Below, one piece after another: positions 8,523 to 47,473 of a stretch of DNA of 64,000 nt (position 1 is its first letter; each line of letters opens with the position of its first letter). The position numbers and the translations under genes were made by a program. The notes below the pieces were generated by a model. The model made no database searches and was not told where the DNA came from. It saw only the letters and a list, made by a program, of their open reading frames with translations. Source of the stretch: Parabacteroides faecalis (GTDB lineage: Bacteria; Bacteroidota; Bacteroidia; Bacteroidales; Tannerellaceae). The stretch covers positions 1 through 64,000 of the forward strand of contig NZ_JAKZMM010000022.1 of assembly GCF_022809355.1 (NCBI RefSeq), written 5' to 3'.

Positions 8523-8588
8523 ACTATTTATTTTAATTGAATAAATCATGAACGATTATTGATTCATTTATTAACTAAGAAATCTTTA

Positions 8589-8666
8589 TTCGCCCAGGGC
8601 GAACATATATTCGGTGTGGGCGATTATATATTCAACGTGGGTGAATATATAATCAGCGTGGGCGAA
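8589..8666. repeat. Tandem palindromic repeat, 4 units of 21 bp
   Basis: Four 15-bp cores at 8589-8603, 8610-8624, 8631-8645 and 8652-8666 are separated by 6-bp AT spacers (CATATA, TATATA, TATATA). The first core, TTCGCCCAGGGCGAA, is a perfect palindrome about a central base; the others are diverged but keep a TnnGCGTGGGnGAA-like form. The same 15+6 layout recurs at 47417-47473. Confidence 0.9.
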
Positions 8667-8758
8667 CAAAGTAAAATTCATCTATTCTTTCATAAAACAA
8701 TGTTATTATCAAAAGTATTGCTTGATGGATGAACTGAATTAGAATTTATCAAAAAAAG

Positions 8759-8812
8759 AAGGTGCGCCCAACGTCTTGATTGGTAATACCAGTAAACGTT
8801 TTGACGCACCTT
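8759..8812 (-). terminator. Terminator of asnS
   Basis: AAGGTGCG (8759-8766) pairs with CGCACCTT (8805-8812), with further pairing of AACGT and ACGTT inside. On the minus strand the stem is followed by a run of Ts (the A-run 8751-8757 on the plus strand). Confidence 0.82.
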
Positions 8813-8833
8813 GTTTTTATGCGGATTTCTTAA

Positions 8834-10240
8834 TTAGAATTCTGCATTATTCGGAGTACGCGGGAACGGAATCACATCGCGGATGTTGGCCATACCTGTA
8901 ACGAATAATAACAATCGTTCGAAACCAAGACCAAAACCAGAATGAGGAACCGTACCAAAGCGGCGAGTATCCAAATACCACCACATATCTTTCATCGGGA
9001 TATTCAATTCCTGAATGCGGTTGTAAAGCTTATCGTAATCAGCCTCACGTTCAGAACCACCGATGATTTCACCGATCTTCGGGAACAGAACGTCCATAGC
9101 ACGAACAGTCTTTCCGTCTTCGTTCTGTTTCATATAGAACGCCTTGATTTCTTTCGGGTAATCTGTCAGGATAACCGGACGTTTGAAATGTTCTTCCACC
9201 AAGAAACGTTCGTGTTCTGAAGCCAAATCAACACCCCAGTAAACCGGGAATTCAAATTTGTGGCCTTTCGCAACAGCTTCTTCCAGAATCTTGATACCTT
9301 CTGTATAAGGTAAGCGGACGAATTCGTCTTTCAAGACACCTTGCAAGCGTTCGATCAAGCCTTTGTCGAACATATCGTTCAGGAATTTAACATCGTCCAT
9401 GCAATTGTCGAGAGCCCATTGTACGCAGTACTTAATGAATTCTTCTGCCAATTCCATGTTGTCGTTGATGTCATTGAAGGCAACTTCCGGTTCAATCATC
9501 CAGAACTCAGCCAAGTGACGAGGAGTATTGGAGTTTTCAGCACGGAAAGTCGGACCGAATGTATAGATCTGACCCAAAGCTGTTGCAGCCAATTCACCTT
9601 CCAACTGACCAGAAACCGTCAGACTTGTCTGCTTTCCGAAGAAGTCATCGTCGTAAAGGATAGAGCCGTTCTCGTCTTTCTTCAAGTTATACAGGTTCTT
9701 CGTAGTTACCTGGAACATCTGTCCTGCACCTTCACAGTCGGAAGCCGTGATAATAGGTGTATGGAAGTAGAAGAAACCTTTGTCATGGAAGAATTTATGA
9801 ATCGCATAAGCCATGTTATGACGAATACGGAAAACGGCACCGAATGTATTCGTACGCGGACGCAAGTGAGCGATTTCACGCAAGAACTCCATCGAGTGAC
9901 CTTTCTTCTGTAACGGATAAGTTGCCGGATCAGCTGTACCGTAGATTTCAATTTCGGTAGCTTGGATTTCGACTGACTGACCTTTTCCTTGCGACTGCAC
10001 TAAAGTACCGTTTACACTGATACTGGCACCAGTCGTGATCGGTTTCAGAAACTCTTCACCTAATTTATCTACATCAACAACGATTTGAACATTATTTATT
10101 GTAGAACCGTCGTTCAGCGCAATAAAGTTTACTTGTTTACTGCCACGGCGAGTACGAACCCAACCTTTTACATTAACGGTAGAGCCAAAAGCTGTGCTTT
10201 TGAGCAAATCTACAATCTTTGTTCTTTTTATTGTTTCCAT
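8834..10240 (-). CDS. asnS: Asparaginyl-tRNA synthetase
   Basis: A 468-residue class II aminoacyl-tRNA synthetase that charges tRNA-Asn in the cytoplasm. Seen: N-terminal OB-fold anticodon-binding domain (about 15-105, [19 protein letters not shown]), class II motif 2 region ([19 protein letters not shown]) and motif 3 ([16 protein letters not shown]) close to the C-terminus. Length matches the usual 466-470. I start at the ATG at 10240 ([13 protein letters not shown]); the frame is open a further 30 nt upstream but that would overlap rluB and add a non-conserved tail. It lies 16 nt after rluB and is probably co-transcribed with it. Confidence 0.97.
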
Positions 10241-10256
10241 TATATTATTAGTTTTA

Positions 10257-11699
10257 TTATTCGAAAGCACCCATGCGCAATGCGTTTACTTCTTTTTCGT
10301 TCAGATAACGCCATTTACCGCGGCCCAGGTTTTTCTTCGTCAGACCGGCGAAATATACACGATCCAATTTAACGACGTGGTAACCTAATGATTCGAAGAT
10401 ACGACGAACAATACGGTTACGGCCTGAATGGATTTCGATACCTACCTGGCTCTTGTCTGTTTCGCTTGCATAGCTGATAGCGTCTGCATGGATTTCACCG
10501 TCTTCCAGTTCCAAACCGTTGGCGATTTTCTCCATATCTTCTACAGAAACATTCTTATCCAACCATACATGATAGATCTTCTTCTTCTTGAATGACGGAT
10601 GAGTCAGTTTAGAAGCCAGATCACCATCGTTCGTTAATAACAATACACCGGTTGTATTGCGGTCCAGACGGCCTACCGGATAGATTCTTTCTGTACAAGC
10701 GTGTTTTACCAAATCCATTACAGTCAGACGTTCCTGTGGATCATCAGATGTAGTCACACAGTTCTTCGGTTTGTTCAGGATGATGTAAACCTTGCTTTCA
10801 ATCTGAACCGGTTTGTCGTTGAAAGTTACTTTATCTGAACGAGTAATCTTTGTACCCAATTCTGTTACTACAACGTCGTTTACTTTTACATTACCTGCCT
10901 GGATGAATTCATCTGCCTCACGACGAGAGCAAACACCTGCATTCGACAAGAATTTGTTCAAACGGATCGGTTCGTTCGGATCTGCCAATACTTCCTTATA
11001 CTTCAATTGTTTCTGGAAGTTGTATTTAGCATTCGGATTGTAATTGTTAGAACGACGATTGTTGTTATTGTTCGGACGACGATTGTTGTTATTACGTCCG
11101 TTGTTTGCGTTATAACGGCCGCCACCGTATGCGTTTCCGCCACCGTAGTTATTGCCGTATGGACGTGGAGCTGCTCCGCGATTATCCTGACGGTTATCGA
11201 AGTTTGTACGGTTTTCACCTACACGCGGTCTTCTTTTCTTTACCGGTGCACCTTCCGGGTTGTTAGGTAAAGCATTGGGGTTGCTGCTATAAACCGGACG
11301 GTTGAAAGCACGTTGATCGTTGTTCGGATTGTAGGCCGGACGATTTCCATACTGACGGTTTTGATTATACCCTCCGTCACGATTCGGATTGTTGTAATTC
11401 GCGTTACGGTTATTACCATACTGGCGGTTGTTTCCATATCCGCCACGATTGTCATAACGTTGCTGATAACCTTGGTTGCCATAATCATTATACGACTGGC
11501 GATCTCCATAAGAACGATAACCTCCTCGGTCATTGTTTGCCGGTCGGTTGTACGGTCTGCGTTCATAGTTACCTTCCTGACGGTTGTAACCAGCGTTATA
11601 AGGTCTTCCACCGTCTTCTGCATTTTCTCTGTAGCCCGTTACTTTTCTTGGGCGTGCTGCTGGCTGCTGCTGTGCCTCGTCTCTTTCTTCTGTACTCAT
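10257..11699 (-). CDS. rluB: RluB-type rRNA pseudouridine synthase with long disordered N-terminus
   Basis: A 480-residue enzyme that converts a uridine of 23S rRNA (in E. coli, U2605) to pseudouridine. The conserved part starts with an S4 RNA-binding domain (about 245-290, [20 protein letters not shown]) and continues with the RsuA/RluB catalytic domain, catalytic Asp346 in [11 protein letters not shown]. Residues 1-240 are low-complexity, rich in Asn, Arg, Gly and Tyr with many RGG, YGN and NNR steps, so they should be unfolded and bind RNA or promote condensation. Extended RluB proteins are known in Bacteroidetes. A family member such as RluE or RluF is less likely. Confidence 0.9.
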
Positions 11700-11808
11700 T
11701 GTTGTATTTATTATAATAAAGGTTTATAATTGATAGCCTCACGGCTACCTTTGATTTTTTATTGTATGATTAAAATTAGGAGATAAAATAGCATTGATTC
11801 TGTTTATT

Positions 11809-11858
11809 ATCAAAGTAGTCCGGTTGATCGATTAGCAATTGTCCGGAACTACTTTGAT
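11809..11858 (-). terminator. Long hairpin between purB and rluB
   Basis: ATCAAAGTAGTCCGG (from 11809) pairs with CCGGAACTACTTTGAT (to 11858) with one bulge. It follows purB on the minus strand but lacks a T-run, so it may be a weak terminator or an RNA-stability element. Confidence 0.55.
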
Positions 11859-11876
11859 GCCTTTTTCTCCTTGTTT

Positions 11877-13220
11877 TTAAATTCCTGTATAATTATGCGG
11901 TGTAATCGCTCTTAATTCTTCTTTTACGCGATCACTGACCTGCAATGTTTCAATAAAATCTTTGATCGACTGTTCGGTGATGCCTGCATTGGTACGGGTA
12001 AGCGCCTTCAATGCTTCGTAGGGTTTCGGATAACCTTCCCGGCGTAAAATCGTTTGGATTCCTTCTGCCACGACTGCCCAACATTTGTCAAGGTCTGCTT
12101 CCAAGGCTTTCTCGTTCAGCAATAATTTACCCAGACCTTTTAACAGACTCTTGAAGGCAATTTCGATGTGTGCCATCGGAACACCAATATTTCTCAGAAC
12201 CGTTGAGTCTGTCAAGTCACGCTGTAAGCGGGAAATCGGAAGCTTTGTTGATAAATGTTCCAGGATTGCGTTGGCAATTCCTAAGTTTCCTTCTGCATTT
12301 TCGAAGTCGATCGGATTGACTTTATGCGGCATGGCCGATGAACCTACTTCGCCAGCTTTGATTTTCTGCTTGAAATATTCCATCGAAATATATTGCCAGA
12401 AGTCGCGGTTCAAGTCAATCAGGATGGTATTGATTCGTTTCATGCCATCGAAGATAGCACCCAGATTGTCGTAGTTGGAGATTTGTGTTGTCCACTCTTC
12501 GCGTTGTAATCCTAATGACTCACTGACGAACTTGTTACCGAAAGCTTTCCAGTCATATTCCGGATAAGCCACGTGATGCGCGTTGAAGTTTCCGGTAGCA
12601 CCTCCGAATTTGGCTGAAACAGGTATTGCCTTCAATAGGTTCAGTTGCTGTTTCAAGCGATAAACGAACACCATGATTTCTTTTCCTAAGCGGGTAGGAG
12701 AAGCCGGTTGTCCGTGAGTCTTGGCCAACATCGGGATATTCATCCATTCGTTTGCATACGTCTCTAATGTCTGGATCACTTCTTCCAGTCCTGGATAATA
12801 AACCTCATTCAGCGCTTCTTTCAGCGATAAGGGAATAGACGTGTTGTTGATGTCTTGTGATGTCAGTCCGAAATGAATGAACTCATGATATTTTTCAGCC
12901 AGGAAATGGTCTGTTTTTTCTTTGATGAAATACTCAACGGCTTTGACATCATGGTTGGTTACCTTCTCAATTTCTTTTACTCGCAAAGCATCTTCTTCCG
13001 TAAAATCTTTATAAACATTGCGAAGCCAAGTTTTTACTTCTTCCGTATTTAATTCACTTAATTGCGGAAGATATTCAGACAGAGCTATCAAATACTCAAT
13101 CTCCACGCGCACTCTATATCTAATCAGCGCGAATTCAGAAAAATAAGCTGCCAGGTTCTCAGCTTTGTTCCAATATCGCCCGTCAACAGGCGAGATGGCT
13201 GTTAGTGTCGATAGTATCAT
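11877..13220 (-). CDS. purB: Adenylosuccinate lyase
   Basis: A 447-residue fumarase/aspartase-superfamily enzyme with two jobs in purine synthesis: SAICAR to AICAR, and adenylosuccinate to AMP plus fumarate. Seen: ISPVDGRYWNKAENL at the N-terminus, a substrate-binding TSQDINNTS segment, and the superfamily signature GSSAMPHKVNPIDFENAEGN near residue 288. Length fits the E. coli-like branch (456). It is first of a possible purB-rluB-asnS transcript, but the 177-nt gap with a hairpin after purB may separate them. purA lies about 28 kb away in this window. Confidence 0.97.
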   Translation of the reverse strand: MILSTLTAISPVDGRYWNKAENLAAYFSEFALIRYRVRVEIEYLIALSEYLPQLSELNTEEVKTWLRNVYKDFTEEDALRVKEIEKVTNHDVKAVEYFIKEKTDHFLAEKYHEFIHFGLTSQDINNTSIPLSLKEALNEVYYPGLEEVIQTLETYANEWMNIPMLAKTHGQPASPTRLGKEIMVFVYRLKQQLNLLKAIPVSAKFGGATGNFNAHHVAYPEYDWKAFGNKFVSESLGLQREEWTTQISNYDNLGAIFDGMKRINTILIDLNRDFWQYISMEYFKQKIKAGEVGSSAMPHKVNPIDFENAEGNLGIANAILEHLSTKLPISRLQRDLTDSTVLRNIGVPMAHIEIAFKSLLKGLGKLLLNEKALEADLDKCWAVVAEGIQTILRREGYPKPYEALKALTRTNAGITEQSIKDFIETLQVSDRVKEELRAITPHNYTGI

Positions 13221-13255
13221 TTTTCCTTTAATACATTATATATTATGTAGAGTTG

Positions 13256-13290
13256 CAAAGTTAATGCTTTTCCTGGTATGTATATGCAAA
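13256..13290 (-). promoter_or_regulatory. Probable promoter for purB
   Basis: On the minus strand TAACTTTG (13256-13263) is a good -7 box 35 nt before the start codon. A TTTG (13287-13290) lies upstream, but the 23-nt spacing is longer than usual. Confidence 0.5.
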
Positions 13291-13323
13291 AGCAAAGTTT
13301 TTTTATTTTTTTCTCCGAAAATG

Positions 13324-13354
13324 TTTGGAGGTTTCAAAAAAAGCCGTACCTTTG
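13324..13354 (+). promoter_or_regulatory. Promoter for the tRNA-Val cluster
   Basis: TTTG at 13324-13327 and TACCTTTG at 13347-13354 with 19 nt between, about 45 nt before the first tRNA. Confidence 0.75.
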
Positions 13355-13399
13355 CACCGTCTTAAAGAGATAAGGCGTACAAAACATGATGAATGAAAA

Positions 13400-13474
13400 G
13401 GGCGTTTAGCTCAGCTGGTTCAGAGCATCTGCCTTACAAGCAGAGGGTCGGCGGTTCGAATCCGTCAACGCCCA
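13400..13474 (+). tRNA. tRNA-Val (anticodon TAC), copy 1
   Basis: A 75-nt tRNA. Acceptor GGGCGTT pairs with AACGCCC, discriminator A; the anticodon loop CTTACAA between TCTGC and GCAGA gives TAC (valine). The T arm is GGCGG TTCGAAT CCGTC. CCA is not encoded. It is the first of three identical genes. Confidence 0.97.
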
Positions 13475-13501
13475 CTTTTCAAAATAATCAACCGATTAAT
13501 C

Positions 13502-13576
13502 GGGCGTTTAGCTCAGCTGGTTCAGAGCATCTGCCTTACAAGCAGAGGGTCGGCGGTTCGAATCCGTCAACGCCCA
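13502..13576 (+). tRNA. tRNA-Val (anticodon TAC), copy 2
   Basis: Identical in sequence to copy 1. The 27-nt spacer before it (CTTTTCAAAATAATCAAC...) is nearly the same as the one before copy 3, so the unit of duplication is about 102 bp including the spacer. Confidence 0.97.
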
Positions 13577-13604
13577 CTTTTCAAAAACAATCAATCGATT
13601 AATC

Positions 13605-13679
13605 GGGCGTTTAGCTCAGCTGGTTCAGAGCATCTGCCTTACAAGCAGAGGGTCGGCGGTTCGAATCCGTCAACGCCCA
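13605..13679 (+). tRNA. tRNA-Val (anticodon TAC), copy 3
   Basis: Identical to copies 1 and 2, separated from copy 2 by a 28-nt spacer. A terminator follows 10 nt later, so all three are probably one transcript. Confidence 0.97.
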
Positions 13680-13689
13680 CACTTCTATC

Positions 13690-13714
13690 AAGCATCCATT
13701 TGGATGCTTTTTTT
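13690..13714 (+). terminator. Terminator of the tRNA-Val transcript
   Basis: AAGCATCC pairs with GGATGCTT over ATTT and runs into seven Ts. Confidence 0.9.
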
Positions 13715-13754
13715 GTTTCTACACAATTCATCGATTGTATTTATTACGACTGCT

Positions 13755-14090
13755 TTATAATTTCAGTTGTATTTGTCTGATTATTTCTTCCCGCTGTTCG
13801 CTGCTGGTGACGTAAATCTTTCCGCTTTTCGTGCGGATATAAAAGGCTTGGCTGTAATTTCCGACGAAAGCCGTGTATTTCCCTAATTCTTTATTTCGGA
13901 AAAGTCCGGTGTAACCTAAAAAGCCTCCGTTTCCCATCAGACGAATATCCGAATGATAATCCTTATATGGTTCGATTTTTTCTATTGCAGAAAAGGGAAT
14001 TTCTTTTATACCAGCCAGCTTACAGATCGTCAGTTTGTCATCGCCTAATTTTAAAGACATAGGTGCTTGTAAAACGAAATAAACGCTCAA
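13755..14090 (-). CDS. PH-domain-like membrane protein, start codon unclear
   Basis: At least 111 residues that resemble the small bacterial PH-domain membrane proteins: a beta-rich domain with LTICKLAGIKEIPFSAIEKIE and YIRTKSGKIYVTSSEQREEI. The only standard start in frame is a TTG at 14090, which would cut through a hydrophobic helix. The frame stays open upstream to about 14200 and encodes the rest of that helix (NTWVISAFSIVLLLSVYFVL) after STKINEF, yet has no ATG, GTG or TTG there. So the real N-terminus is probably near 14150 from a non-standard codon, or the start has been lost and this is a young pseudogene. Function unknown. Confidence 0.6.
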   Translation of the reverse strand: MSVYFVLQAPMSLKLGDDKLTICKLAGIKEIPFSAIEKIEPYKDYHSDIRLMGNGGFLGYTGLFRNKELGKYTAFVGNYSQAFYIRTKSGKIYVTSSEQREEIIRQIQLKL

Positions 14091-14205
14091 GAGTAATACG
14101 ATTGAAAAAGCGCTGATTACCCATGTGTTAAACTCGTTGATTTTCGTAGATAAGTAATAGATTGTTAACTGATTATTGATTATAAATAGGTTATAAACTA
14201 ATTAA

Positions 14206-14293
14206 TTCACATTTGTGATCTAATTAATTTACCTATGTGAATTGATTGATTCATATTAGTGATTTAATTAATTCATATAGGTGAATTAATTAA
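14206..14293. repeat. Tandem repeat, 4 units of 22 bp
   Basis: Units at 14206-14227, 14228-14249, 14250-14271 and 14272-14293 have the form TTCAnATnnGTGAnTTAATTAA. Each unit pairs TTCA with its complement TGAA/TGAT around a short centre, followed by an AT-only spacer. The period and layout match the arrays at 8589 and 47417, but the sequence is different. Confidence 0.9.
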
Positions 14294-14441
14294 TATATCA
14301 GCTATTTGATATGAAAAGAGGAAGGGGACGAATTTAGTTGGTGCGGGATTTGTCAGGAATTTTTCTTGGGATCCATCCGATTTTAAGAGAGGAAGATAAG
14401 TTTCTGTTGGATAACATAATTGTCAAACATCACAGAATAAA

Positions 14442-14472
14442 TTGTTTATCTCCGCAACAATTCCTAATTTGC
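14442..14472 (+). promoter_or_regulatory. Promoter for EF-G2
   Basis: TTG at 14442-14444 and TAATTTGC at 14465-14472, 20 nt apart, leaving a leader of about 60 nt. In B. thetaiotaomicron the paralogous gene is activated under carbon starvation by a CRP-like regulator; I did not identify that site here. Confidence 0.55.
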
Positions 14473-14537
14473 GGTCGTGACTTCAAAACGTCACATATAT
14501 TTCTATATTGTTAAACCTAAAAAAAGCTGATATCATC

Positions 14538-34331: not shown

Positions 34332-34350
34332 AAGCGATTTAAATGAATAA

Positions 34351-34358
34351 CAAAAGTA
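34351..34358 (-). promoter_or_regulatory. -7 box of the sulfatase gene
   Basis: On the minus strand TACTTTTG (34351-34358) fits TAnnTTTG, 20 nt before the ATG. Confidence 0.5.
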
Positions 34359-34444
34359 AGTAATCATCCGGAGAATCTTTGCACGGATCTTAAGATGGCA
34401 ACACTAATTAACATCAGAATCATAGAATCTCTTCTGGTTTTCTG

Positions 34445-34452
34445 TAAGTTTG
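34445..34452 (+). promoter_or_regulatory. -7 box of the PepSY-like lipoprotein gene
   Basis: TAAGTTTG, 30 nt before the ATG, fits TAnnTTTG; the upstream -33 element is unclear. Confidence 0.5.
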
Positions 34453-34482
34453 TAACACTTATAATCCATAAATCATTTTATC

Positions 34483-35871: not shown

Positions 35872-35908
35872 AATTTTAGTTTATAAGGAAATTACCAGCT
35901 ATTTTCCG

Positions 35909-35916
35909 TAATTTTG
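35909..35916 (+). promoter_or_regulatory. -7 box of the mtaB operon
   Basis: TAATTTTG fits TAnnTTTG. It contains the TTG at 35914 that could open the frame, so the ATG at 35950 is the better start. Confidence 0.55.
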
Positions 35917-35949
35917 CAAACTATTAGTTCAGGAGATTGTTTCATAGAT

Positions 35950-37275: not shown

Positions 37276-37294
37276 TTTTCTTGAGACTGATTGT

Positions 37295-38203: not shown

Positions 38204-39227
38204 GAATAAGAAAATAGCAATTGTCATATTGAATTGGAACGGTTCTGCCTTGATGGAAAAGTATCTTCCTTCGGTAGTCCGTTATTCTCCGGCTGAATGG
38301 GCTGATGTCATAGTTGCGGATAATGGGTCAACGGATGATTCCTTGCAAATGCTGGCCGATAAATTCCCTTCCGTGCAGATTATCCGGATGGATAAGAATT
38401 ATGGATTTGCAGAAGGTTATAATCAGGCTCTGAAACAAATCTCTCATCCTTATTGCGTCTTGTTGAATAGTGATGTGGAAGTAACTCCGAACTGGCTGGA
38501 TGCTCCTTGTCGATTATTGGATACACACCCTGATGTTGTTGCCGTTCAGCCTAAGATCAAAGCCGACGATCAGCGTGCCTTCTTTGAGTATGCCGGAGCT
38601 TCGGGTGGTTTTATGGATAAATACGGTTATCCGTTTTGTCGGGGGCGCTTATTGCATATTGTAGAGGAAGACAGCGGGCAGTATGATACTCTAATAGATG
38701 TTCTTTGGGCGACAGGCGCTTGTCTGTTTATCCGTACGGATGTGTATAAAGCCGTAGGAGGATTGGATGGTGATTTCTTTGCTCATCAAGAAGAGATTGA
38801 TATGTGTTGGCGACTTCGGGCACGTGGTTATCGGTTGGTATGCACTCCTCAGTCTGTCATTTATCATAAAGGAGGTGGTACATTGAATGTGGAAAGTCCT
38901 CGCAAGACATTCCTGAATTTCCGGAATAATCTGTTGATGCTTTATAAGAATTTACCGGATAAAGACTTGAAACCGGTGATGCGGCTTCGTTTTTGGCTTG
39001 ACTATTTGGCTGCTCTTAAGTTCTTTTTGACTGGACATGTCGCGAATGCCAAGGCGGTTTATCAGGCTCGGCATGAGTTTTATCAGCTTCTTCCTCAATT
39101 TGAACATAAACGGATGGAAAATATGCAGAAGACGGTTCTTACTGAGATACCGGAGCTGAAATCATATAGTTTGTTGTGGCAGTTTTATCTGAAAGGACGA
39201 AAACATTATTCCGAATTGCCGCAATAA
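38190..39227 (+). CDS. Glycosyltransferase family 2
   Basis: A 345-residue GT-A glycosyltransferase. Seen: the donor-binding NGSTDDSLQML strand with DVIVADNGSTDD, the metal-binding LLNSDVEVTPNW (DxD-like), and the HQEEIDMCWRLRARG acceptor-side motif typical of WbbL/rhamnosyltransferase-like GT2. The C-terminal third has a hydrophobic stretch suggesting membrane association. It overlaps the acyltransferase by 14 nt, so it may act on the same surface glycolipid. Sugar and linkage are unknown. Confidence 0.9.
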   Translation: MEITKNKKIAIVILNWNGSALMEKYLPSVVRYSPAEWADVIVADNGSTDDSLQMLADKFPSVQIIRMDKNYGFAEGYNQALKQISHPYCVLLNSDVEVTPNWLDAPCRLLDTHPDVVAVQPKIKADDQRAFFEYAGASGGFMDKYGYPFCRGRLLHIVEEDSGQYDTLIDVLWATGACLFIRTDVYKAVGGLDGDFFAHQEEIDMCWRLRARGYRLVCTPQSVIYHKGGGTLNVESPRKTFLNFRNNLLMLYKNLPDKDLKPVMRLRFWLDYLAALKFFLTGHVANAKAVYQARHEFYQLLPQFEHKRMENMQKTVLTEIPELKSYSLLWQFYLKGRKHYSELPQ

Positions 39228-39266
39228 GATCGTGTATTTTACGTTATAAGTAAGATATTTACTGAT

Positions 39267-41261
39267 ATGTCACTAGTAATGAATCAACAGAAATCCTACA
39301 TATTTGGTCTATTGGGCATTTTCCTTTCGCTAATGTTCTTTTCTTGTAAAACGGCGAAGCTGAGTGATGCTGAGGAAAAGCATCGTATCGGAGAATATTA
39401 TGAAGCTGCCGCTATCTATCGTAAAGTTTATACAAAGACATCACCCAAGAAACGGGATTTGAGAGGTTACATCGCTTTCCGTATGGCTGAATGCAATCGG
39501 TTGATCAATAGTACGGACAAAGCTATCAGTGGATATATGAATGCATTGAGATATGAATATCCTGATTCTATCTTGAATTTACGTTTAGGCCAGATGCTTC
39601 AGCGTAAGGGACGTTATACTGAGGCAATCAAACAGTACGATGCTTATTTGATGTACAATCCCGAAAGTCAATTAGCTTTTAATGGAATTGAAGGTTGTCA
39701 GTTGGCTCCTGTATGGAAGAAGAATCCAACCCGTTATGAAGTCCGACGCATGGAAAAGTTCAATTCCCGCCGTGGTGAGTTTTGTCCGATGTTGACAGGA
39801 GAGAAGTATGATCAATTGTATTTTACCTCTTCACGAACGAAAGATAAGGAAGCAAAGGTTAGTGCTATTACCGGACAGTATAATAATAACTTTTTCCTGG
39901 TCAAACAGGATGAAAATGGCAATTGGTTGAATCCGGAAGAACTGGAAGATGAAGTGAATACGGAGTTTGATGAAGGAACGTCCTCGTTTTCGGCTGATGG
40001 GAATACAATGTATTATACGTATTGTTCGCAGGATGAAACAGGCGACCGTACTTCTGAAATATATGTTTCTACCCGTAGTAGTGCTAAATGGGGGAAAGGA
40101 ACGCGTACCACGATTGTAAAAGATTCAGTGACGGCTTTAGGTCATCCAGCCATTTCACCGGATGGGAAATATCTTTATTTCACATCAGATGTTGTAGGAG
40201 GATTTGGAGGAAAAGATTTATATAGAGCCCGTGTAGCAGGAAGTGATTTTGGTCCTATGGAAAACTTGGGCCCGGAAATTAATACGACAGGTGATGAAAT
40301 GTTTCCTTATGTACGTGATTCTGTAACCATATATTTTGCTTCCAATGGACATCCGGGTGCAGGTGGTTTGGATTTGTTTAAGGCGACTCAAGACAGTACA
40401 GGACATTGGAAGGTAGAAAACTTAGGTTTTCCGATAAACTCCTCAAGTGATGATTTTGGTATTACGTTTGAAGGAAATAAGGAAAAGGGTTTTTTCAGTT
40501 CAAACCGGAATGATGCTCGTGGGTTTGATCATATTTATTCATTTGAAAAGCCAACAATTACAGTACGTATTGAAGGTATTGTAAATGATGTGGATGAATA
40601 TCCGATAGAAGATGCAACGGTCCGGATTGTAGGAAAAGACGGATTGAATGCCAAGGTGCAAACAAAGAAAGATGGAACTTACGAAGTGGAACTGGAACGG
40701 GATATTAAATATGTCATGATGGCCAGTGCCCGTGGTTTCTTGAACCAGAACTATGAATTACATACCAGTCCGGAAGAGAAAAGTGAAACGTATATTGTTG
40801 ATTTCTTCTTGTCGCCGATTAGTAAACCTGTGGTTATCGAGAATATTTTTTATGACTTTGATAAAGCAACCTTACGTCCGGAATCGAAGAAGGCTTTGGA
40901 TGAGATGATCAAGATGTTGAATGACAATCCTAATGTAACCATTGAGTTAGGTGCACATACTGACCGGAAAGGTACAGATAAGTATAACGAAAAGCTGGCT
41001 CAACGGAGAGCTCAGTCGGTTGTCGATTATCTGATAGCCGGAGGTATTGCGGCCGATCGTCTTGAAGCTAAGGGATATGGAGAAAGCGTACCGAAGACGA
41101 TCAATAAAAAGATGGCTAAACAGTTTGATTTCTTGAAAGAAGGTGATGTCTTGACGGAAGACTTTATTCTGAAATTAACTCCTGAACAACAGGAAATAGC
41201 TGATCAGATCAATCGTCGTACAGAGTTTAAGGTGTTACGTACCAATTATAACTTGTTCTAA
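39267..41261 (+). CDS. porE: PorE-like OmpA-family lipoprotein (type IX secretion)
   Basis: A 664-residue multidomain lipoprotein. Seen in order: lipoprotein signal (SLMFFSC, near residue 27), a TPR region (about 35-150), a WD40/PD40-type beta-propeller (about 165-430, repeats such as GHPAISPDGKYLYFTSD), a carboxypeptidase-regulatory-like domain (about 435-520), and an OmpA peptidoglycan-binding domain (about 530-664, IFYDFDKATLRPES and IELGAHTDRKGTDKYNEKLAQRRA). This order and length match PorE of Porphyromonas gingivalis, which links the T9SS to the cell wall. It ends an operon that begins at mtaB (39-nt gap before it). ATG at 39279 is a second start option. Confidence 0.85.
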   Translation: MSLVMNQQKSYIFGLLGIFLSLMFFSCKTAKLSDAEEKHRIGEYYEAAAIYRKVYTKTSPKKRDLRGYIAFRMAECNRLINSTDKAISGYMNALRYEYPDSILNLRLGQMLQRKGRYTEAIKQYDAYLMYNPESQLAFNGIEGCQLAPVWKKNPTRYEVRRMEKFNSRRGEFCPMLTGEKYDQLYFTSSRTKDKEAKVSAITGQYNNNFFLVKQDENGNWLNPEELEDEVNTEFDEGTSSFSADGNTMYYTYCSQDETGDRTSEIYVSTRSSAKWGKGTRTTIVKDSVTALGHPAISPDGKYLYFTSDVVGGFGGKDLYRARVAGSDFGPMENLGPEINTTGDEMFPYVRDSVTIYFASNGHPGAGGLDLFKATQDSTGHWKVENLGFPINSSSDDFGITFEGNKEKGFFSSNRNDARGFDHIYSFEKPTITVRIEGIVNDVDEYPIEDATVRIVGKDGLNAKVQTKKDGTYEVELERDIKYVMMASARGFLNQNYELHTSPEEKSETYIVDFFLSPISKPVVIENIFYDFDKATLRPESKKALDEMIKMLNDNPNVTIELGAHTDRKGTDKYNEKLAQRRAQSVVDYLIAGGIAADRLEAKGYGESVPKTINKKMAKQFDFLKEGDVLTEDFILKLTPEQQEIADQINRRTEFKVLRTNYNLF

Positions 41262-41316
41262 ATTTCTTGCGCTGAAAAAAGTAGGTTGAATCGTTCGGAA
41301 TCTCCGATAAATCTAC

Positions 41317-41324
41317 TAACTTTG
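41317..41324 (+). promoter_or_regulatory. -7 box of purA
   Basis: TAACTTTG fits TAnnTTTG with a leader of about 80 nt before the ATG. Confidence 0.45.
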
Positions 41325-41407
41325 TCGATTGCGTTAGGGAATGTAAAGGAATAATGGTTCAATAACGCATACAAGCGAAATATTAACGGCCTATATAAAT
41401 AAAAGCA

Positions 41408-42679
41408 ATGAAAGTAGATGTTTTATTAGGATTGCAATGGGGTGACGAAGGCAAAGGTAAAGTAGTTGACGTTCTTACTCCGAAATATGATGTGGTCGCT
41501 CGTTTTCAGGGTGGACCGAATGCAGGACATACATTAGAGTTTAAAGGCGAGAAATATGTGTTGCGTTCCATTCCTTCAGGTATTTTCCAGGGAGGTAAAA
41601 TTAATGTGATCGGTAATGGCGTGGTTTTGGATCCGGTTCTGTTCAAGGAAGAAGCAGAAGCTTTGGCTGCCAGTGGCCATGATATTACCAAACAGCTGTA
41701 TATTTCTAAGAAAGCACATCTGATCTTACCGACTCATCGTATTTTGGATGCGGCTTATGAAGCAGCCAAAGGCGCAGGAAAGATTGGTACTACCGGAAAA
41801 GGTATCGGTCCGACTTATACAGATAAGATCAGTCGTAATGGTGTACGCGTAGGTGATTTACTGCGAGACTTCGATTCTATTTATAGTGCCGCAAAAGCCA
41901 GACATGAAGCTATTCTGAAGTCATTGAATTATGACTATGACATTACGGAATTGGAGGCTAAATGGTTTGATGCCTTGAATTATCTGAAGCAGTTTAAGCT
42001 GATTGACAGCGAGCATTTCATCAACAACCTGTTGAAGGACGGCAAGAATGTATTGGCTGAAGGTGCTCAGGGTACTATGCTGGATGTTGATTTCGGTTCT
42101 TATCCTTTTGTTACTTCTTCAAATACAATTTGTGCTGGTTGTTGTACCGGTTTAGGTGTCGCTCCCCGAAATATAGGTGAAGTGTATGGTATCTTTAAAG
42201 CTTATTGTACTCGTGTTGGTAGCGGACCTTTCCCAACTGAATTGTTTGATGAGGTTGGTGATAAGATCGGTCAGCTTGGTCATGAGTTTGGAGCTGTAAC
42301 AGGACGTAAGCGTCGTTGCGGATGGATTGATTTGGTAGCTTTGAAGTATGCTGTGACAATTAACGGTGTCAGCCAGCTGATCATGATGAAGAGCGATGTA
42401 TTGGATACGTTTGAAACCATTAAAGCTTGTGTGGCTTATAAGATTAATGGAGAAGAAGTAACAGAATTCCCTTATTCAATTGATGGTGAAGTAGAACCTG
42501 TCTATGTTGAATTGCCGGGTTGGCAGACTGATATGACTAAGATGTTGAGCGAAGATGAATTCCCGGAAGAATTCAATGCTTATTTGACATTCTTGGAAGA
42601 AGAATTGGGTGTGCCTATCAAGATCGTATCGGTTGGACCGGATCGTGAACAGACCATCGTTCGTTACACAGAAGAATAA
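41408..42679 (+). CDS. purA: Adenylosuccinate synthetase
   Basis: A 423-residue GTP-dependent ligase that joins aspartate to IMP, the first committed step to AMP. Seen: the start LLGLQWGDEGKGKVVD with the GDEGKGK nucleotide loop (residues 11-17), a QFKLIDS region, AQGTMLDVDFGSYPFVTSS, and the C-terminal TGRKRRCGWID. It works with purB of this window. Length is normal. It appears to be transcribed alone. Confidence 0.97.
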   Translation: MKVDVLLGLQWGDEGKGKVVDVLTPKYDVVARFQGGPNAGHTLEFKGEKYVLRSIPSGIFQGGKINVIGNGVVLDPVLFKEEAEALAASGHDITKQLYISKKAHLILPTHRILDAAYEAAKGAGKIGTTGKGIGPTYTDKISRNGVRVGDLLRDFDSIYSAAKARHEAILKSLNYDYDITELEAKWFDALNYLKQFKLIDSEHFINNLLKDGKNVLAEGAQGTMLDVDFGSYPFVTSSNTICAGCCTGLGVAPRNIGEVYGIFKAYCTRVGSGPFPTELFDEVGDKIGQLGHEFGAVTGRKRRCGWIDLVALKYAVTINGVSQLIMMKSDVLDTFETIKACVAYKINGEEVTEFPYSIDGEVEPVYVELPGWQTDMTKMLSEDEFPEEFNAYLTFLEEELGVPIKIVSVGPDREQTIVRYTEE

Positions 42680-42744
42680 GAATAGACAAATTGGCGGATT
42701 AACAAGTTGATAGTTTGTTCTTCCGGCTAAGGATATTGTCAGGA

Positions 42745-42790
42745 ATGGCAGAAGAAGTGTTTGATATGGCACATCTTTCTGCCATTTCTT
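42745..42790 (+). terminator. Hairpin after purA
   Basis: ATGGCAGA (42745-42752) pairs with TTCTGCCAT (42777-42785) plus flanking pairs, then TTTC. The zinc peptidase promoter begins right at its end. Confidence 0.6.
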
Positions 42791-42819
42791 TGTTTGGTAA
42801 GGATTTTGTTCTATATTTG
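42789..42819 (+). promoter_or_regulatory. Promoter for the zinc peptidase gene
   Basis: TTTG at 42789-42792 and TATATTTG at 42812-42819, 19 nt apart, 36 nt before the ATG. Confidence 0.7.
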
Positions 42820-42855
42820 AGGACTGAATTATTTTATTTATAGTAATTTACAATT

Positions 42856-43536
42856 ATGTATTGGATTATTTTTATAGGATTCGCCCTATTGAGTTGGTTA
42901 GTATCTGCTAACCTGAAGCGAAAGTTCGAGAAGTATTCTCAAGTGCCCTTACCCAATGGAATGACAGGACGTGACGTTGCCGAGCAAATGCTTCACGACA
43001 ACGGTATTTATGATGTACAAATCACTTGTACGCCCGGACAACTGACAGACCATTACAATCCCATGAACAAGACAGTGAATTTGAGTGAAGGGGTTTATTA
43101 TAGTAATAGTATTGCCGCTGCAGCCGTCGCTGCACACGAATGCGGTCATGCCGTGCAACATGCAACTGCTTATGCTCCGTTAAAGATGCGTTCGGCTTTG
43201 GTGCCGGTAGTAAGCTTTGCTTCCAACATTGTATCGTGGGTATTGTTAGGCGGAATGTTGCTATTGCATAAGTTTCCGGAATTGATGTTGTTTGGTATTA
43301 TTCTTTTCGCTACCACAACTTTGTTTAGCTTTATCACTTTGCCTGTGGAGATTAATGCCAGTCAGCGTGCTTTGGTTTGGTTGAGCCGGGCAGGAATAAC
43401 GAATGTATATACACATGATAAAGCTGAAGATGCATTAAAGTCGGCTGCTTATACCTATGTGGTTGCTGCTTTAGGTTCATTGGCTTCGTTAATGTATTAC
43501 ATTATGATTTTCATGGGTGGAAGTCGAGATGAATAA
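42856..43536 (+). CDS. Zinc-dependent membrane peptidase (YugP-like)
   Basis: A 226-residue membrane protein of the Zn-dependent peptidase family found as YugP in Bacillus. Seen: an N-terminal helix (about 1-15), the metal motif AAHECGHAVQH (near residue 95), and helices around 112-135, 142-162 and 195-215. The family is predicted to cleave membrane proteins; a substrate is not known. Normal length, own promoter, convergent with prs. Confidence 0.85.
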   Translation: MYWIIFIGFALLSWLVSANLKRKFEKYSQVPLPNGMTGRDVAEQMLHDNGIYDVQITCTPGQLTDHYNPMNKTVNLSEGVYYSNSIAAAAVAAHECGHAVQHATAYAPLKMRSALVPVVSFASNIVSWVLLGGMLLLHKFPELMLFGIILFATTTLFSFITLPVEINASQRALVWLSRAGITNVYTHDKAEDALKSAAYTYVVAALGSLASLMYYIMIFMGGSRDE

Positions 43537-43553
43537 CAGACATAGAGACAAAA

Positions 43554-43589
43554 GAAAAGAGCCGGATGCGAAAGCGCCCGGCTCTTTTC
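43554..43589. terminator. Bidirectional terminator between convergent genes
   Basis: GAAAAGAGCCGG (from 43554) pairs with CCGGCTCTTTTC (to 43589), with A- and T-rich flanks; it serves the zinc peptidase and prs. Confidence 0.92.
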
Positions 43590-43611
43590 TTTTCTTGTTA
43601 TGTATCAAAAC

Positions 43612-44553
43612 TTAGATCGTATACAAAGAACTGATAGATTCACCACTGCATACACGACGGATGGCTTCAGCAAACATGTCTGCAATAGACAAGATCTTTA
43701 CTTTCTCACACTTCTTAGCATAAGGAATAGAATCGGTAAAGATCATTTCTGTCAAAGCTGACTGATCTACGCGTGTAGAAGCCGGATCAGACATTACGGC
43801 ATGACTGGCAATGGCACGAACAGATTTAGCTCCGTTTTCCATCATCAGGTTAGCTGCTTTTGTGATAGTACCGGCTGTATCAACCATATCATCAACCAGC
43901 AGAACATCCAAACCTTTTACATCACCGATGATACGCATTTCGGCTACTTCGTTAGCACGCAAACGAGATTTATGACAAATTACCATCGGCAATCCTAAAT
44001 ATTTAGAATAGCTGCTGGCACGTTTTGTTCCACCAACGTCAGGTGTAGCGATACACAAATTGTCTAACGGCAGTTCATTCTTGATATAATCCAGGAATAC
44101 ACTAGAAGCATACAAGTGGTCAACCGGAACATTGAAGAAACCTTGAATCTGATCTGCATGCAAGTCCATTGTAATCAGACGGTTGATGCCGGCAGCACTC
44201 AGCATGTCTGCGATTAATTTTGCACCGATAGCCACACGTGGTTTATCCTTTCTGTCTTGACGTGCCCAACCGAAGTATGGGATAACTGCAATGATTGAAT
44301 GAGCAGAAGCACGTTTGGCAGCGTCGATCATCAGGAGTAATTCCATCAGGTTGTCGGCATTGGGAAACGTTGATTGTACCAAAAATACATCACGGCCACG
44401 GATAGATTCTTCATACGAAACAGAGAATTCTCCATCTGCGAAGTGTTGAATATTCATTTGTCCCAGAGGACAACCTAAACTGTTGCAGATTTTTTCTGCC
44501 AAGTAACGGGAATTTGTACCCGAAAATACTAAGAAAGGAGTTTGTGCACTCAT
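43612..44553 (-). CDS. prs: Ribose-phosphate pyrophosphokinase
   Basis: A 313-residue PRPP synthase that makes the activated ribose for purine, pyrimidine, His and Trp synthesis. Seen: the flexible ATP loop YFGWARQDRKDKPR (about 96-109), the metal-binding MDLHADQIQGFF, and the PRPP loop VLLVDDMVDTAGTITKA (about 215-230). Length is typical of the bacterial class I enzyme. Its own minus-strand -7 box lies upstream; amylase and patatin genes precede it on the same strand. Confidence 0.97.
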   Translation of the reverse strand: MSAQTPFLVFSGTNSRYLAEKICNSLGCPLGQMNIQHFADGEFSVSYEESIRGRDVFLVQSTFPNADNLMELLLMIDAAKRASAHSIIAVIPYFGWARQDRKDKPRVAIGAKLIADMLSAAGINRLITMDLHADQIQGFFNVPVDHLYASSVFLDYIKNELPLDNLCIATPDVGGTKRASSYSKYLGLPMVICHKSRLRANEVAEMRIIGDVKGLDVLLVDDMVDTAGTITKAANLMMENGAKSVRAIASHAVMSDPASTRVDQSALTEMIFTDSIPYAKKCEKVKILSIADMFAEAIRRVCSGESISSLYTI

Positions 44554-44594
44554 TATTCCGAATATTTATCTTTAGTGAATAAGTTATTTGTCTG

Positions 44595-44602
44595 CAAAAT
44601 TA
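44595..44602 (-). promoter_or_regulatory. -7 box of prs
   Basis: On the minus strand TAATTTTG (44595-44602) fits TAnnTTTG, 42 nt before the ATG; a TTTG further up is too close to be a -33 element. Confidence 0.5.
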
Positions 44603-44650
44603 CAAAACAATTACAAAAGGACAACTATCTGGTCCGAATAATATGTATTT

Positions 44651-46348
44651 CTAGTAAGTAAACTTCAATACTTTACCCGAACATGCCTCTAATTTCACCT
44701 TGAAAGGCCAGGCGGTTGTCAGTGTACTGATGGTTTCAGTTCCTGTAAGCAGGTCTTTCAACATGGCCGCTTCATTATCTTTTATGTCGAGTGCCTTGAA
44801 TGCATCTTCCGGAATATTGACCCATACGTTTTGTTCGGAATGGGTAAAGTTGGCAACGACCAGGATGACTTCATTCTTATGTTTACGCAAGAAGGCATAT
44901 TGATTCCGGTTGTTGAAGAAGCGGTTCTTTTCGTTGGTATACATCAGGTCGAAGAATGAACCTTGGGTAATGGCCGGCTCGTTCTTGGCGATGTTTAGGA
45001 TGGCAGCATATTGCTGACGCAATTGTTTTTGCTTTTCCGTCAGTTTGCCTCCGTCATATTTCCCTCCGTTTTTCCAGTTGCGTAATGTCGATACACTCCA
45101 GTAATCGAAAATGGTCGTTCTGCCGTCGAGTCCGCTGAAGCCTTCTTCGTCCATGCCTCTTTCTCCTAATTCCTGTCCTGAATAGATCATCATCGGATTG
45201 GTATTCATAAGGGCCGAAACCATCAGTCCGGAAATGCCGGCCGAAGGATCTTTGGCAAAGAAATCGGAAGCCAGACGTTGCTCGTCATGATTTTCCAGGA
45301 AGTTCAACATGTGCGACTGGATTCCTTCGAGCGATTGCCAACAAGCTGGAATATTGCTGGCCGGAGCCTGTCCGCAAATAACAGCCCGCAAGGTATCGTA
45401 TAAACCGACTTTATCATACAGATAATCGAAGTGTCCGTTGAAAATATAGTTTCTGTATTCTGCCGGGTTGTATACTTCTGCAATGAAAATGACCGGATAA
45501 TCTTTCTTGACAAGCGGAATGGCCCATTCCCAGAATTCAACCGGAACCATTTCTGCCATGTCACACCGGAATCCGTCTATTTGTTTGCTAGCCCAGAAGC
45601 GAAGTATGTCCAGCATTTTGTGCCAGGTGTTGGGGATAGGATCAAAATACTTACTTCGGCCGTTCAGGTAGTCGACACCGTAATTTAATTTGACGGTTTC
45701 ATACCAGTCGTTACAGTTGGGAAAAGCATCGAATCGGTCGTTACCTGTTGCTTTTGCGGGGAATTCGCTATATCCCAAGCCTTCATCATCGTTTGTAAAC
45801 GGCAATGTCAAGGGCTGACCAGGGATATAATAGAAATTATTGTTCGGATCGAAAGCTTTCGATGTATTGTCGTTTTGTCCGAGTTCTTCGATAAAATTGT
45901 ATTGGGCATCCGAATGATATTGCCGGGCTACGTGATTCGGAACAAAATCAATGATGACTTTCATTCCGGCATCGTGTGTGCGGGCAACTAATGCTTCGAA
46001 TTCTTCCATTCTGTTTTCCACATGGTCGGCCAAGTCTGGGTCAATGTCGTAATAATCTTTGATGGCATACGGCGAACCGGCTTTCCCTTTTACAACGGCT
46101 CTATGGTCTTTTTGAATATGATAAGCCGTATAATCGGTTTGTGTAGCATGTTCGATTACGCCTGTGTACCAGATATGTGTGGTTCCTAGTTCTTTGATCT
46201 TACTTAATGCCAGTGGTGTGAAATCCGAAAATTTACCGACTCCGTTTTCTTCCAGGCTTCCGTTGCGGACAGGCTTAGTATTTGTATTCCCAAACCACCG
46301 GGGAAACACTTGGTAGATGATCATCTTTTCTGTTTTTCTTGATTCCAT
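44651..46348 (-). CDS. Alpha-amylase family protein (GH13), cytoplasmic
   Basis: A 565-residue GH13 glycosidase that works on alpha-glucans. Seen: the barrel motif VIIDFVPNHVARQYHS, the nucleophile Asp in KQIDGFRCDMAE, the acid Glu in VIFIAEVYN, and the third Asp in FLENHDEQRLA; a beta-sandwich C-terminal domain follows (about 480-565). There is no signal peptide, so it acts inside the cell, perhaps on glycogen or imported maltodextrin. It lies 24 nt after the patatin gene on the same strand. Confidence 0.9.
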   Translation of the reverse strand: MESRKTEKMIIYQVFPRWFGNTNTKPVRNGSLEENGVGKFSDFTPLALSKIKELGTTHIWYTGVIEHATQTDYTAYHIQKDHRAVVKGKAGSPYAIKDYYDIDPDLADHVENRMEEFEALVARTHDAGMKVIIDFVPNHVARQYHSDAQYNFIEELGQNDNTSKAFDPNNNFYYIPGQPLTLPFTNDDEGLGYSEFPAKATGNDRFDAFPNCNDWYETVKLNYGVDYLNGRSKYFDPIPNTWHKMLDILRFWASKQIDGFRCDMAEMVPVEFWEWAIPLVKKDYPVIFIAEVYNPAEYRNYIFNGHFDYLYDKVGLYDTLRAVICGQAPASNIPACWQSLEGIQSHMLNFLENHDEQRLASDFFAKDPSAGISGLMVSALMNTNPMMIYSGQELGERGMDEEGFSGLDGRTTIFDYWSVSTLRNWKNGGKYDGGKLTEKQKQLRQQYAAILNIAKNEPAITQGSFFDLMYTNEKNRFFNNRNQYAFLRKHKNEVILVVANFTHSEQNVWVNIPEDAFKALDIKDNEAAMLKDLLTGTETISTLTTAWPFKVKLEACSGKVLKFTY

Positions 46349-46372
46349 ATTTGTAGAGTTTTTATTTATGAT

Positions 46373-47203
46373 TTATGGCAGTAAGCTATTCGGATGTGAG
46401 TTTATCGCTTTGATCAGGTTCTCGTGTTTCTTTTCCTGAATAACCTTTTGGAAAGCTTTGACTGCCGCTTCGTAACCAATTTCAGAAATCAGGTTAATAT
46501 TTTCCAGATCAAACGTCTTGTAAAGACCCACTTCTTTAGCTTCTATTAATATGTCACATAATTCTCTGTCTTCAATGGCATTTGCTTTGAACACATAATG
46601 ATAGGTGCGTTCGGCAATATGCAAAAGGGTCTGTTTGTATCGCTGAGGAATCAATGGACTTACATTTACACCGATAACGTATTCGCATTCGTCGCGTATG
46701 GTCGAAACCGGAAAGTTCCGGAAGAGACCGCCGTCAACATAATGCACGCCGTTGATAAGAACCGGACTAAACACGATGGGCATGCAACAAGAAGCGGTTA
46801 CTGCTTCGACAATAGGACCCGAACGAAATTCATGGCTGCATCCGCGATCCAGGTCGGTGGCTACGATAACTGTCGGGATCGGCAAATCCTCGATCCGCTT
46901 GCTCCGCAGGTGCCGTTTTAGGAATTCCTGAAAACGGTCGTAATTGAATAAACCGGACTTGGGAATCTGTAATTGTGCAAATTCGGAGAATTCTCTTCCG
47001 ATAAACATGTTTTTGATCTCATCGGCCGAATATCCGTCGGCGAATAATACGCCCATCAGCGAGCCTGCACTTGTTCCTGAAATAATGTCGGGTTTTAATC
47101 CACTTTCTTCTAGTAGTTTGAAAACGCCCAGATGTGCAAATCCTTTGGCGCCGCCTCCGCTGAGTGCTAAACCAATCTTATAGGGTTTCGGTGTTGCTTC
47201 CAT
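46373..47203 (-). CDS. Patatin-like phospholipase (RssA-type)
   Basis: A 276-residue serine lipid hydrolase. Seen: oxyanion loop GLALSGGGAKGFAHLG (about 11-26), the nucleophile Ser in IISGTSAGSLMG (GxSxG, Ser45), and the catalytic Asp in YVDGGLFRNFP (DG/A). No signal peptide, so it is probably cytoplasmic or peripheral. The upstream partner of the amylase by position (24 nt gap). Substrate unknown; small patatins of this kind are common and rarely characterised. Confidence 0.9.
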   Translation of the reverse strand: MEATPKPYKIGLALSGGGAKGFAHLGVFKLLEESGLKPDIISGTSAGSLMGVLFADGYSADEIKNMFIGREFSEFAQLQIPKSGLFNYDRFQEFLKRHLRSKRIEDLPIPTVIVATDLDRGCSHEFRSGPIVEAVTASCCMPIVFSPVLINGVHYVDGGLFRNFPVSTIRDECEYVIGVNVSPLIPQRYKQTLLHIAERTYHYVFKANAIEDRELCDILIEAKEVGLYKTFDLENINLISEIGYEAAVKAFQKVIQEKKHENLIKAINSHPNSLLP

Positions 47204-47416
47204 GCTTACTCCTCAATTTTTGAATCTCAACTTAAACCGGGGTCAAATATGAGACTTTTTTTACAATATCAAAAGGATTTACCCTTTTTTCTTTTGTTTT
47301 TCTCGACGGAAACTGCTGAGACAGGGACTGAGCTGGTCTGGGATAGTAGAAAAACACCCCATACAAAGGTGTGATTCCTGGATTATAAAAGAGTGGGGCT
47401 AATCGTAAATTCTTTA

Positions 47417-47473
47417 GTTCACGGCGTGAACTAAGTAATCCACGGCGTGAACTAAGTAATCCACGGCGTGAAC
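47417..47473. repeat. Tandem palindromic repeat, 3 units of 21 bp
   Basis: Three 15-bp cores at 47417-47431, 47438-47452 and 47459-47473 (GTTCACGGCGTGAAC, then ATCCACGGCGTGAAC twice) are split by the 6-bp spacer TAAGTA. The first core is a perfect palindrome about one base. Same 15+6 layout as at 8589, with a different sequence. Confidence 0.92.

Follow-up and report, generated by a model that had tools for sequence, protein, structure and literature searches.

The REP/BIME sequences, palindromic repeats dispersed between genes, are paired with the gene of a cognate protein, the RAYT transposase, and nucleoid organization offers further parallels in the HU fold of HU and IHF and in the short palindromic chromosomal sites of matS-MatP. 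HU is the textbook non-specific packer of bacterial DNA, classical HU is not known to recognise particular sequences, and the HU superfamily as a whole was reportedly analysed by Burroughs and colleagues in 2017. Here we describe tandem arrays of short palindromes in a 64,000-nucleotide stretch of Parabacteroides faecalis (GCF_022809355.1, contig NZ_JAKZMM010000022.1, positions 1 to 64,000; hereafter the window), and we propose that such arrays are probably the cognate sites of diversified paralogues in which HU is joined to a winged helix, acting as autoregulatory operators and as dispersed copies of these. Like REP/BIME, the arrays are palindromic, dispersed, intergenic and paired with a candidate protein gene; they differ in that the proposed partner is an HU-winged-helix protein and not a Y1 transposase, PF01797 (Y1_Tnp) having no match in this genome while 6 of 14 control genomes were positive. 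The difference from HU/IHF and matS-MatP is that each paralogue appears, judging from sequence, to have a palindrome array of its own.

Closer in layout are the BrickBuilt repeats of Porphyromonas gingivalis, which are likewise intergenic and dispersed (19 copies) with a 23-nt tandem unit and inverted-repeat ends, and which are reported solely from P. gingivalis and P. gulae (PMC4596501). The same text describes leader and tail segments, up to 22.8 units and ends resembling IS5-family insertion sequences (IS), whereas the arrays described here have about four palindromic cores, no IS partner that we could see and no target duplication. It also lists 22-, 23- and 41-nt tandem repeats in P. gingivalis, and places BrickBuilt_14 next to PGN_0872, a gene listed as DNA-binding protein (PF00216) (PMC4596501). 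Operator clusters of Lrp/AsnC proteins are alike in their semi-palindromic sites two turns apart, in autoregulation and in wrapping (PMC2995911, PMC10201364), but they belong to another protein family, and here each genome holds many sequence families. A partial coverage of the literature gave no earlier account of such arrays or of sites bound by HU-HIG proteins.

The preliminary description of the window had listed four separate arrays with a 21- or 22-bp period, at least two of them with a palindromic core. Three were confirmed by Tandem Repeats Finder (TRF), at 8597–8668 (21 bp, 3.4 copies), 14199–14294 (22 bp, 4.4 copies) and 47420–47476 (21 bp, 2.7 copies), and by a lag scan that tested periods 15–39 across the window, in which only 21, 22 and 24 bp were seen, the 24-bp matches lying elsewhere. 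The quoted palindromic cores are present, but in the 8587–8668 array the full palindrome is limited to the first core, the other three being imperfect. The fourth array, at 31067–31121, did not hold up: TRF reported no tandem array there, and the sequence is that of an element of about 56 bp with ACGCCGGC twice direct and once inverted, about 20–22 bp apart, which on this evidence is a dispersed repeat (family D) distinct from the tandem palindrome arrays (families A–C). Nor do the arrays stand alone, as all of them belong to dispersed families. The features are as follows.

8585–8669, plus strand: family B array, four cores, the first TTCGCCCAGGGCGAA, 21-bp period, ends CTTTATTCGCC and GGCGAACAAAG.
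14197–14296, plus strand: family C array, four TTYAC/TTCAY-N4-GTGAA-like cores, 22-bp period, AATTAATTAATT-like spacers.
31064–31124, plus strand: family D element, ACGCCGGC repeats direct and inverted.
47343–47408, no strand: left flank of the window family A copy, for which the family-wide profile of 46 flanks predicts a 22-bp lattice of A/T triplets.
47409–47479, plus strand: family A array, three cores, ATTCTTTAGTTCACGNCGTGAAC..., 21-bp period.
47480–47550, no strand: right flank of the window family A copy.

A BLAST search of the whole genome (4.31 Mb, 104 contigs) located family A at 25 places, family B at 16, family C at 17 (16 used, leaving out a 32-bp match close to the end of a contig) and family D at at least 30 (40 of 59 candidates scored; 22 places used, eight shorter or weaker matches dropped). 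The usual number of cores in families A–C is four. By a fixed rule, family A has four cores in 19 of its 25 copies, three in 3 (among them the window copy and locus L028, where a degenerate fourth core is visible), two in 2 and five in 1. Its typical ends are ATTCTTTAGTTCACG ... CGTGAACTAAAGAAT, and ATTCTTTAGTTCACG-like terminal inverted repeats flank most copies on both sides, in part a trivial consequence of the palindromic cores. Across 95 family A units the dyad-centre base is almost unconstrained (1.74 bits), in contrast to the arms, where 11 of the 14 positions up to 7 bp away stay below 0.5 bits. The spacer centre reads AAGTA or ACTTA exclusively, with zero intermediates in 57 spacers of four-core copies, TAAGTA and TACTTA being reverse complements of each other, and the half-site flanks alternate between GAACT and GGATT through two linked changes (e.g. 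L009–L028). These two-state spacers and flanks suggest modular exchange or discrete recognition states. Where the neighbouring genes are co-directional, family A is oriented with transcription at 10 of 11 sites, and 13 of the 25 copies are flanked by divergent genes; both observations would suit a function close to promoters. A regulon of common function was considered for families A–C and rejected, as the downstream genes look diverse and mostly housekeeping (judged by their first residues, with a Pfam scan covering nine window genes). A location at promoters only was rejected as well: families A–C are convergent at just 2 of 55 placed sites, yet 8 of 44 arrays in the random sample described below are convergent, close to the background of about 16%.

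The regularity of family A extends beyond the repeats themselves. When 46 flanks were aligned outward, G+C fell to 0, 0 and 4% at positions 21–23, to 0, 2 and 9% at 43–45 and to 11, 7 and 17% at 65–67, with G+C-rich stretches separating these A/T triplets; at the window copy, GGAAGTTTG lies at 47496–47504, about one 22-bp step beyond the element. For family B the corresponding values, over 27 flanks, are 4 and 0% at 23–24 and 7 and 0% at 45–46, and in families C and D the lattice is less clear. In an independent set of 31 random-sample arrays a weaker A/T continuation was found (p = 0.008). Because G and C are excluded while A and T both occur, the lattice positions appear to be under constraint, and part of the lattice may consist of degenerate outer repeat units. 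Detection of the lattice without an anchor was insensitive even on a positive control, and pairs of the AASTTT motif gave no clear peak at 22 bp.

The spacing recurs in other genomes. In stretches of 13 genomes comprising 382 intergenic regions and 200 kb, the window with its three arrays included, tandem arrays were present in 44 regions, with best periods of 14–16 bp (8), 21–23 bp (19), 24 bp (1), 26 bp (1) and 40–44 bp (15). Thus 34 of the 44 have a period of 21–23 or 40–44 bp and none has 17–20 or 27–39 bp; core sequences vary among the arrays and the spacing is constant. Some 40–44-bp arrays are two unlike palindromes alternating every ~20.5–22 bp (L132, L133, L100). Ten Markov-shuffled sets of the 382 regions produced no array, nor did 34 intergenic regions of E. 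coli (11 kb), and coding DNA produced arrays in 3 of 1515 pieces (606 kb). Samples from five genus mates (G033, G014, G004, G037, G008) and from five further genera in the family (G047, G057, G040, G039, G059) contained arrays of 21–23 or 40–44 bp, but the 25 and 30 regions sampled from two more genus mates, G011 and G028, contained none. A scan for palindromes alone gave an excess at 21–23 bp in the P. faecalis genome and at 21–24 bp in G033, with few matches in the other samples. Open reading frames (ORFs) of 150 aa or more contain 4 of the 44 arrays. Three of these arrays are from G057, for which gene calls trained on the window cannot be relied on. G057 (genus g12; L131–L134) is also the richest sample, with 13 tandem arrays in 80 kb, 8 of them 40–44 bp and some made of two palindromes in alternation at ~20.5–21 bp. 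Selection on spacing and symmetry, as the preliminary description had suggested, is well supported by the clustering of periods, the free dyad centre between conserved arms in family A and the 22-bp triplets outside; array counts exceed those of shuffled intergenic DNA, and the period extends to ten genomes beyond the window.

Conservation of arrays in place was also considered and rejected. Orthologues of 12 of 13 sites were found in G033 and the scan detected arrays at two of them, not clearly above the background of 6 of 31. These two arrays, upstream of an ABC-F gene (L153) and of maf (L159), lie just upstream of the orthologous gene and are of unrelated sequence. By eye an array, again of unrelated sequence, is also present at rplU (L149) and a degenerate one at lysS (L151); the scan match at L155 is about 1.5 kb off and the glutamine synthetase locus of G033 has no array.

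The arrays are associated with one class of protein gene. The P. faecalis genome contains 20 matches to PF18291 (HU-HIG), which Pfam describes as 'HU domain fused to wHTH, Ig, or Glycine-rich motif', and 15 of these were taken (L039, L054 and L058 among them previously known from their arrays), together with 20 PF18291 genes from seven other genomes chosen blind to their flanks; the long genes L010 and L104 (G033 C6:18276), encountered via their arrays, were excluded from the counts. Genes of at least 185 aa, with HU plus a C-terminal domain, were classed as long and the others, HU only, as short, and about 200 bp upstream was scanned for a period of 20–23 or 40–44 bp with at least 27 of 36 self-matches. 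In the other genomes 9 of 13 long genes had a palindromic array upstream, as against none of 7 HU-only genes (p = 0.004), a rate for long genes well above the 34 of 382 for random intergenic regions (p = 5e-7). In P. faecalis 4 of 6 long genes were scan-positive and none of the nine short genes had a palindromic array upstream, two having 22-bp arrays on their downstream side, so that the combined counts are 13 of 19 long and 0 of 16 HU-only (p = 1.8e-5). The short gene L182 has a 22-bp array 536 bp upstream and the short gene L179 a 14/21-bp repeat downstream. A test for four equally spaced palindromes of any sequence in the 200 bp upstream peaked at 22 bp in the long class (n = 19; mean z 2.13, with 1.60 at 21 bp, 1.58 at 23 bp and 0.20–0.97 at other periods) and gave −0.16 at 22 bp in the short class (n = 16); 21 or 22 bp was the best period in 11 of the 19 long genes.

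A second set was drawn by tblastn with a long G047 protein, which matched 16 plasmid-collection records; 12 of the 14 near full-length matches were analysed, from Bacteroides finegoldii, Bacteroides sp., Phocaeicola massiliensis and Parabacteroides distasonis. The same scan found an array within 230 bp in 8 of the 12, or in 7 of 11 new cases, since L196 of P. distasonis repeats the L178 sequence, the region upstream of that HU gene in G004 reading the same. L196 adjoins rpsL, and several of these 'plasmids' are probably chromosomal pieces. The HU domain model TIGR01201 matched all 21 long proteins, PF18291 all six proteins scanned with it (five long, one short), and a C-terminal winged helix was found in the long class, the AlphaFold model of L010 comprising an HU-like part and a winged helix with a mean predicted local distance difference test score of 88. 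Long HU-HIG-like proteins also occur in phage records from human faeces (H17–H21), where 5 of 50,697 records matched.

Each of families A, B and C has one of its copies upstream of such a long gene. A profile search of the fetched A–D loci (3–6 kb each, some ended by contig boundaries) returned long HU-HIG genes at L010 (family A), L039 (B) and L054 (C) and one short gene at L058 (C). About 0.15 long genes are expected by chance (P ~5e-4), under the rough assumptions of 76 downstream genes, 3600 genes and 7 long genes, more long genes raising the chance. Copies of putative operators were sought in partial samples of ~0.7–13% of each genome, the A–C loci having been fetched for their arrays, and 7 of 21 operators had copies elsewhere, including those of L010, L039 and L054; in P. 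faecalis the L165 operator recurs as copies of 96 and 89 bp and that of L172 over 73 bp, and those of L187 (G040) and L104 (G033) recur over 96 and 108 bp.

The position of the arrays at these genes would suit operators. The −7 element of Bacteroidales promoters is TAnnTTT(G/A/C), and at all nine scan-positive long genes of the other genomes the first palindrome is centred 32–33.5 bp downstream of the start of a −7-like box, compared with a mean of 0.34 and a maximum of 3 in 5000 null trials, a fixed geometry to the promoter. The nine centres were picked by hand from the palindrome list, skipping palindromes upstream of or over the box, and the box is a putative promoter element identified by motif match; an automatic lattice rule placed 6 of 9 at 32–33.5 bp (not L188, L190 and L193) and L104 at 32.5. 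Protein subfamily and spacing also go together, as L010, L039 and L177, which share 42–43% identity (other long proteins have 19–28% to L010), have odd cores at 21-bp spacing and the other long genes even cores at ~22 bp by the second of two core rules.

Taken as binding platforms, the arrays would be recognised sequence-specifically by the expanded HU plus winged-helix proteins of the long HU-HIG/HU_rel class. Each paralogue, as a dimer, would recognise its own palindrome of ~14–16 bp, plausibly through the winged helix, and about four dimers would line up at intervals of two helical turns, 21 bp in one subfamily and ~22 bp in the rest, with the HU part contacting or bending the A/T tracts between and beyond the cores. 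Because the canonical array at the paralogue's own gene follows the −7 box and precedes the start codon, it would repress that gene, and copies of the same array elsewhere would be further sites of that paralogue, making up a nucleoid or regulatory site set specific to it. The placement of all cores on one face of the DNA, put forward in the preliminary description, would fit this arrangement, and the dimeric binding protein proposed there gains a concrete candidate in the HU-HIG winged-helix proteins.

Several observations weigh against assigning the arrays to these proteins. Six of the 19 long genes are scan-negative; weaker arrays are seen by eye only at five (L163, L164, L185, L186, L191), and L194 is unclear. 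In the random sample the long gene L116 is scan-negative and the HU-only gene L138 has a palindromic array. Four HU-only genes of P. faecalis, three of them near-identical, carry upstream non-palindromic 20/40-bp repeats that satisfy the period threshold, and with non-palindromic repeats included the HU-only count rises to 4 of 16 (p = 0.012). The copy of family A at L010 and, likewise, the array at L039 are non-canonical, that of L010 lying upstream of the promoter-like box, no family D copy adjoins a long HU gene in the fetched loci, and for 14 of the 21 operators the partial samples contained no second copy. Core and protein similarity are weakly correlated (Mantel r = 0.077, p = 0.19 by the first core rule, in which L104 was mis-picked; r = 0.165, p = 0.033 by the second). 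HU-HIG copy number does not track array density, the array-richest G057 having 3 PF18291 matches, and the arrays of that genome may be served by another protein. The arrays with their period and dispersal, the lattice, the association with long HU genes and the promoter geometry are sequence observations, whereas binding, bending, repression and the pairing of one paralogue with one family are inferred from them. Separately, the near-identical HU-only genes L167, L168 and L169, which share an upstream 40-bp non-palindromic repeat, appear to be recent duplicates.

Mobile elements could produce part of this picture. Dispersal as miniature inverted-repeat transposable elements (MITEs) with an internal minisatellite, similar to BrickBuilt, moved by a transposase in trans and having no host function, would agree with the inverted repeats that end the dispersed copies and with the narrow range of family A, which at E ≤ 0.001 had one weak match among the 37 other genomes of its genus (L086 in G033, a four-core 21-bp element of different sequence) and none among 148 further genomes from the order. 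The same explanation is favoured by a relative in a distant metagenome-assembled genome of an uncultured Bacteroides, L049, the sole GTDB locus with the exact family A core pattern, whose four-core element is 86% identical to one family A copy and is followed by an ORF that by eye is not an HU protein. Viral contigs held no exact family A or B core pattern, plasmids and phages gave no family A BLAST match, and PADLOC returned weak matches only. Among 20 family A copies examined at 2–5 bp, target-site duplications were not above chance (2 seen against 1.84 expected at 2 bp), and no empty site appeared among 79 joined flanks of the fetched loci, where relatives are at most ~80% identical. The exact end motif TTCTTTAGTTCAC occurred 38 of 38 times at known copies, so that no autonomous partner was seen, although the draft assembly may lack IS copies; six one-mismatch matches elsewhere were left unexamined, a reversed control pattern giving 18. 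Mobile elements also leave unexplained the A/T triplets 22–66 bp outside, the quantised periods of unlike sequences and the promoter geometry of the HU genes. As a full account this is unlikely, and some mobile process may have dispersed the arrays together with their service as HU-HIG sites.

A series of RNA hairpins had also been raised in the preliminary description; placed in 5′ leaders, as an attenuator or a protein-binding leader, it now looks improbable. The arrays are probably transcribed, because they lie downstream of a −7-like box at many long HU genes; against this, the A/T positions are strict outside the cores, a leader role is not obvious for the 13 family A copies between divergent genes, and Rfam matches in the window are limited to tRNAs. 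Least probable is a platform for an octameric protein of the Lrp/AsnC type with four dimers two turns apart. The window does contain an AsnC gene (5736–6209), and Lrp-type targets have a similar layout of clustered semi-palindromic sites two or three helical turns apart (PMC2995911), but two AsnC genes in the genome face many array families, and neither has an array upstream (the window gene by eye, L161 by scan).

As for the surroundings of the window arrays, family A sits between a patatin gene (minus strand) and a type III glutamine synthetase gene (plus strand), and an EF-G-like gene lies downstream of family C. The family D element is adjoined at 31126–31187 by an inverted repeat, AGTAACGAG...CTCGTTACTTTT, which is likely another dispersed repeat because similar sequence flanks the D copies L064, L076, L079 and L084. 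D copies near contig ends (L069, L070, L074, L075, L083) are flanked by a common sequence, TATGCCTAAATTTACTTTACACTTTTTTG, which may mark where a multi-copy element ends at breaks in the assembly. Three near-identical tandem tRNA-Val(tac) genes with a 103-bp period occupy 13400–13680.

Reading the arrays as HU-HIG sites could explain 21–23- and ~42-bp intergenic repeats of the kind reported as MITEs or minisatellites, and, if it is true, many genes annotated solely as 'HU family DNA-binding protein' would gain predicted operators. More tentatively, and with somewhat less than even confidence, Bacteroidales might run parallel chromatin systems, in which dozens of HU-winged-helix paralogues each have a palindrome repeated four times at two-turn spacing, regulate themselves through it, and have it copied to tens of fast-changing intergenic sites. 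If the long HU-HIG proteins are indeed sequence-specific, the Bacteroidales would own a large, fast-evolving layer of chromosome organization and self-regulation with a readable DNA code.

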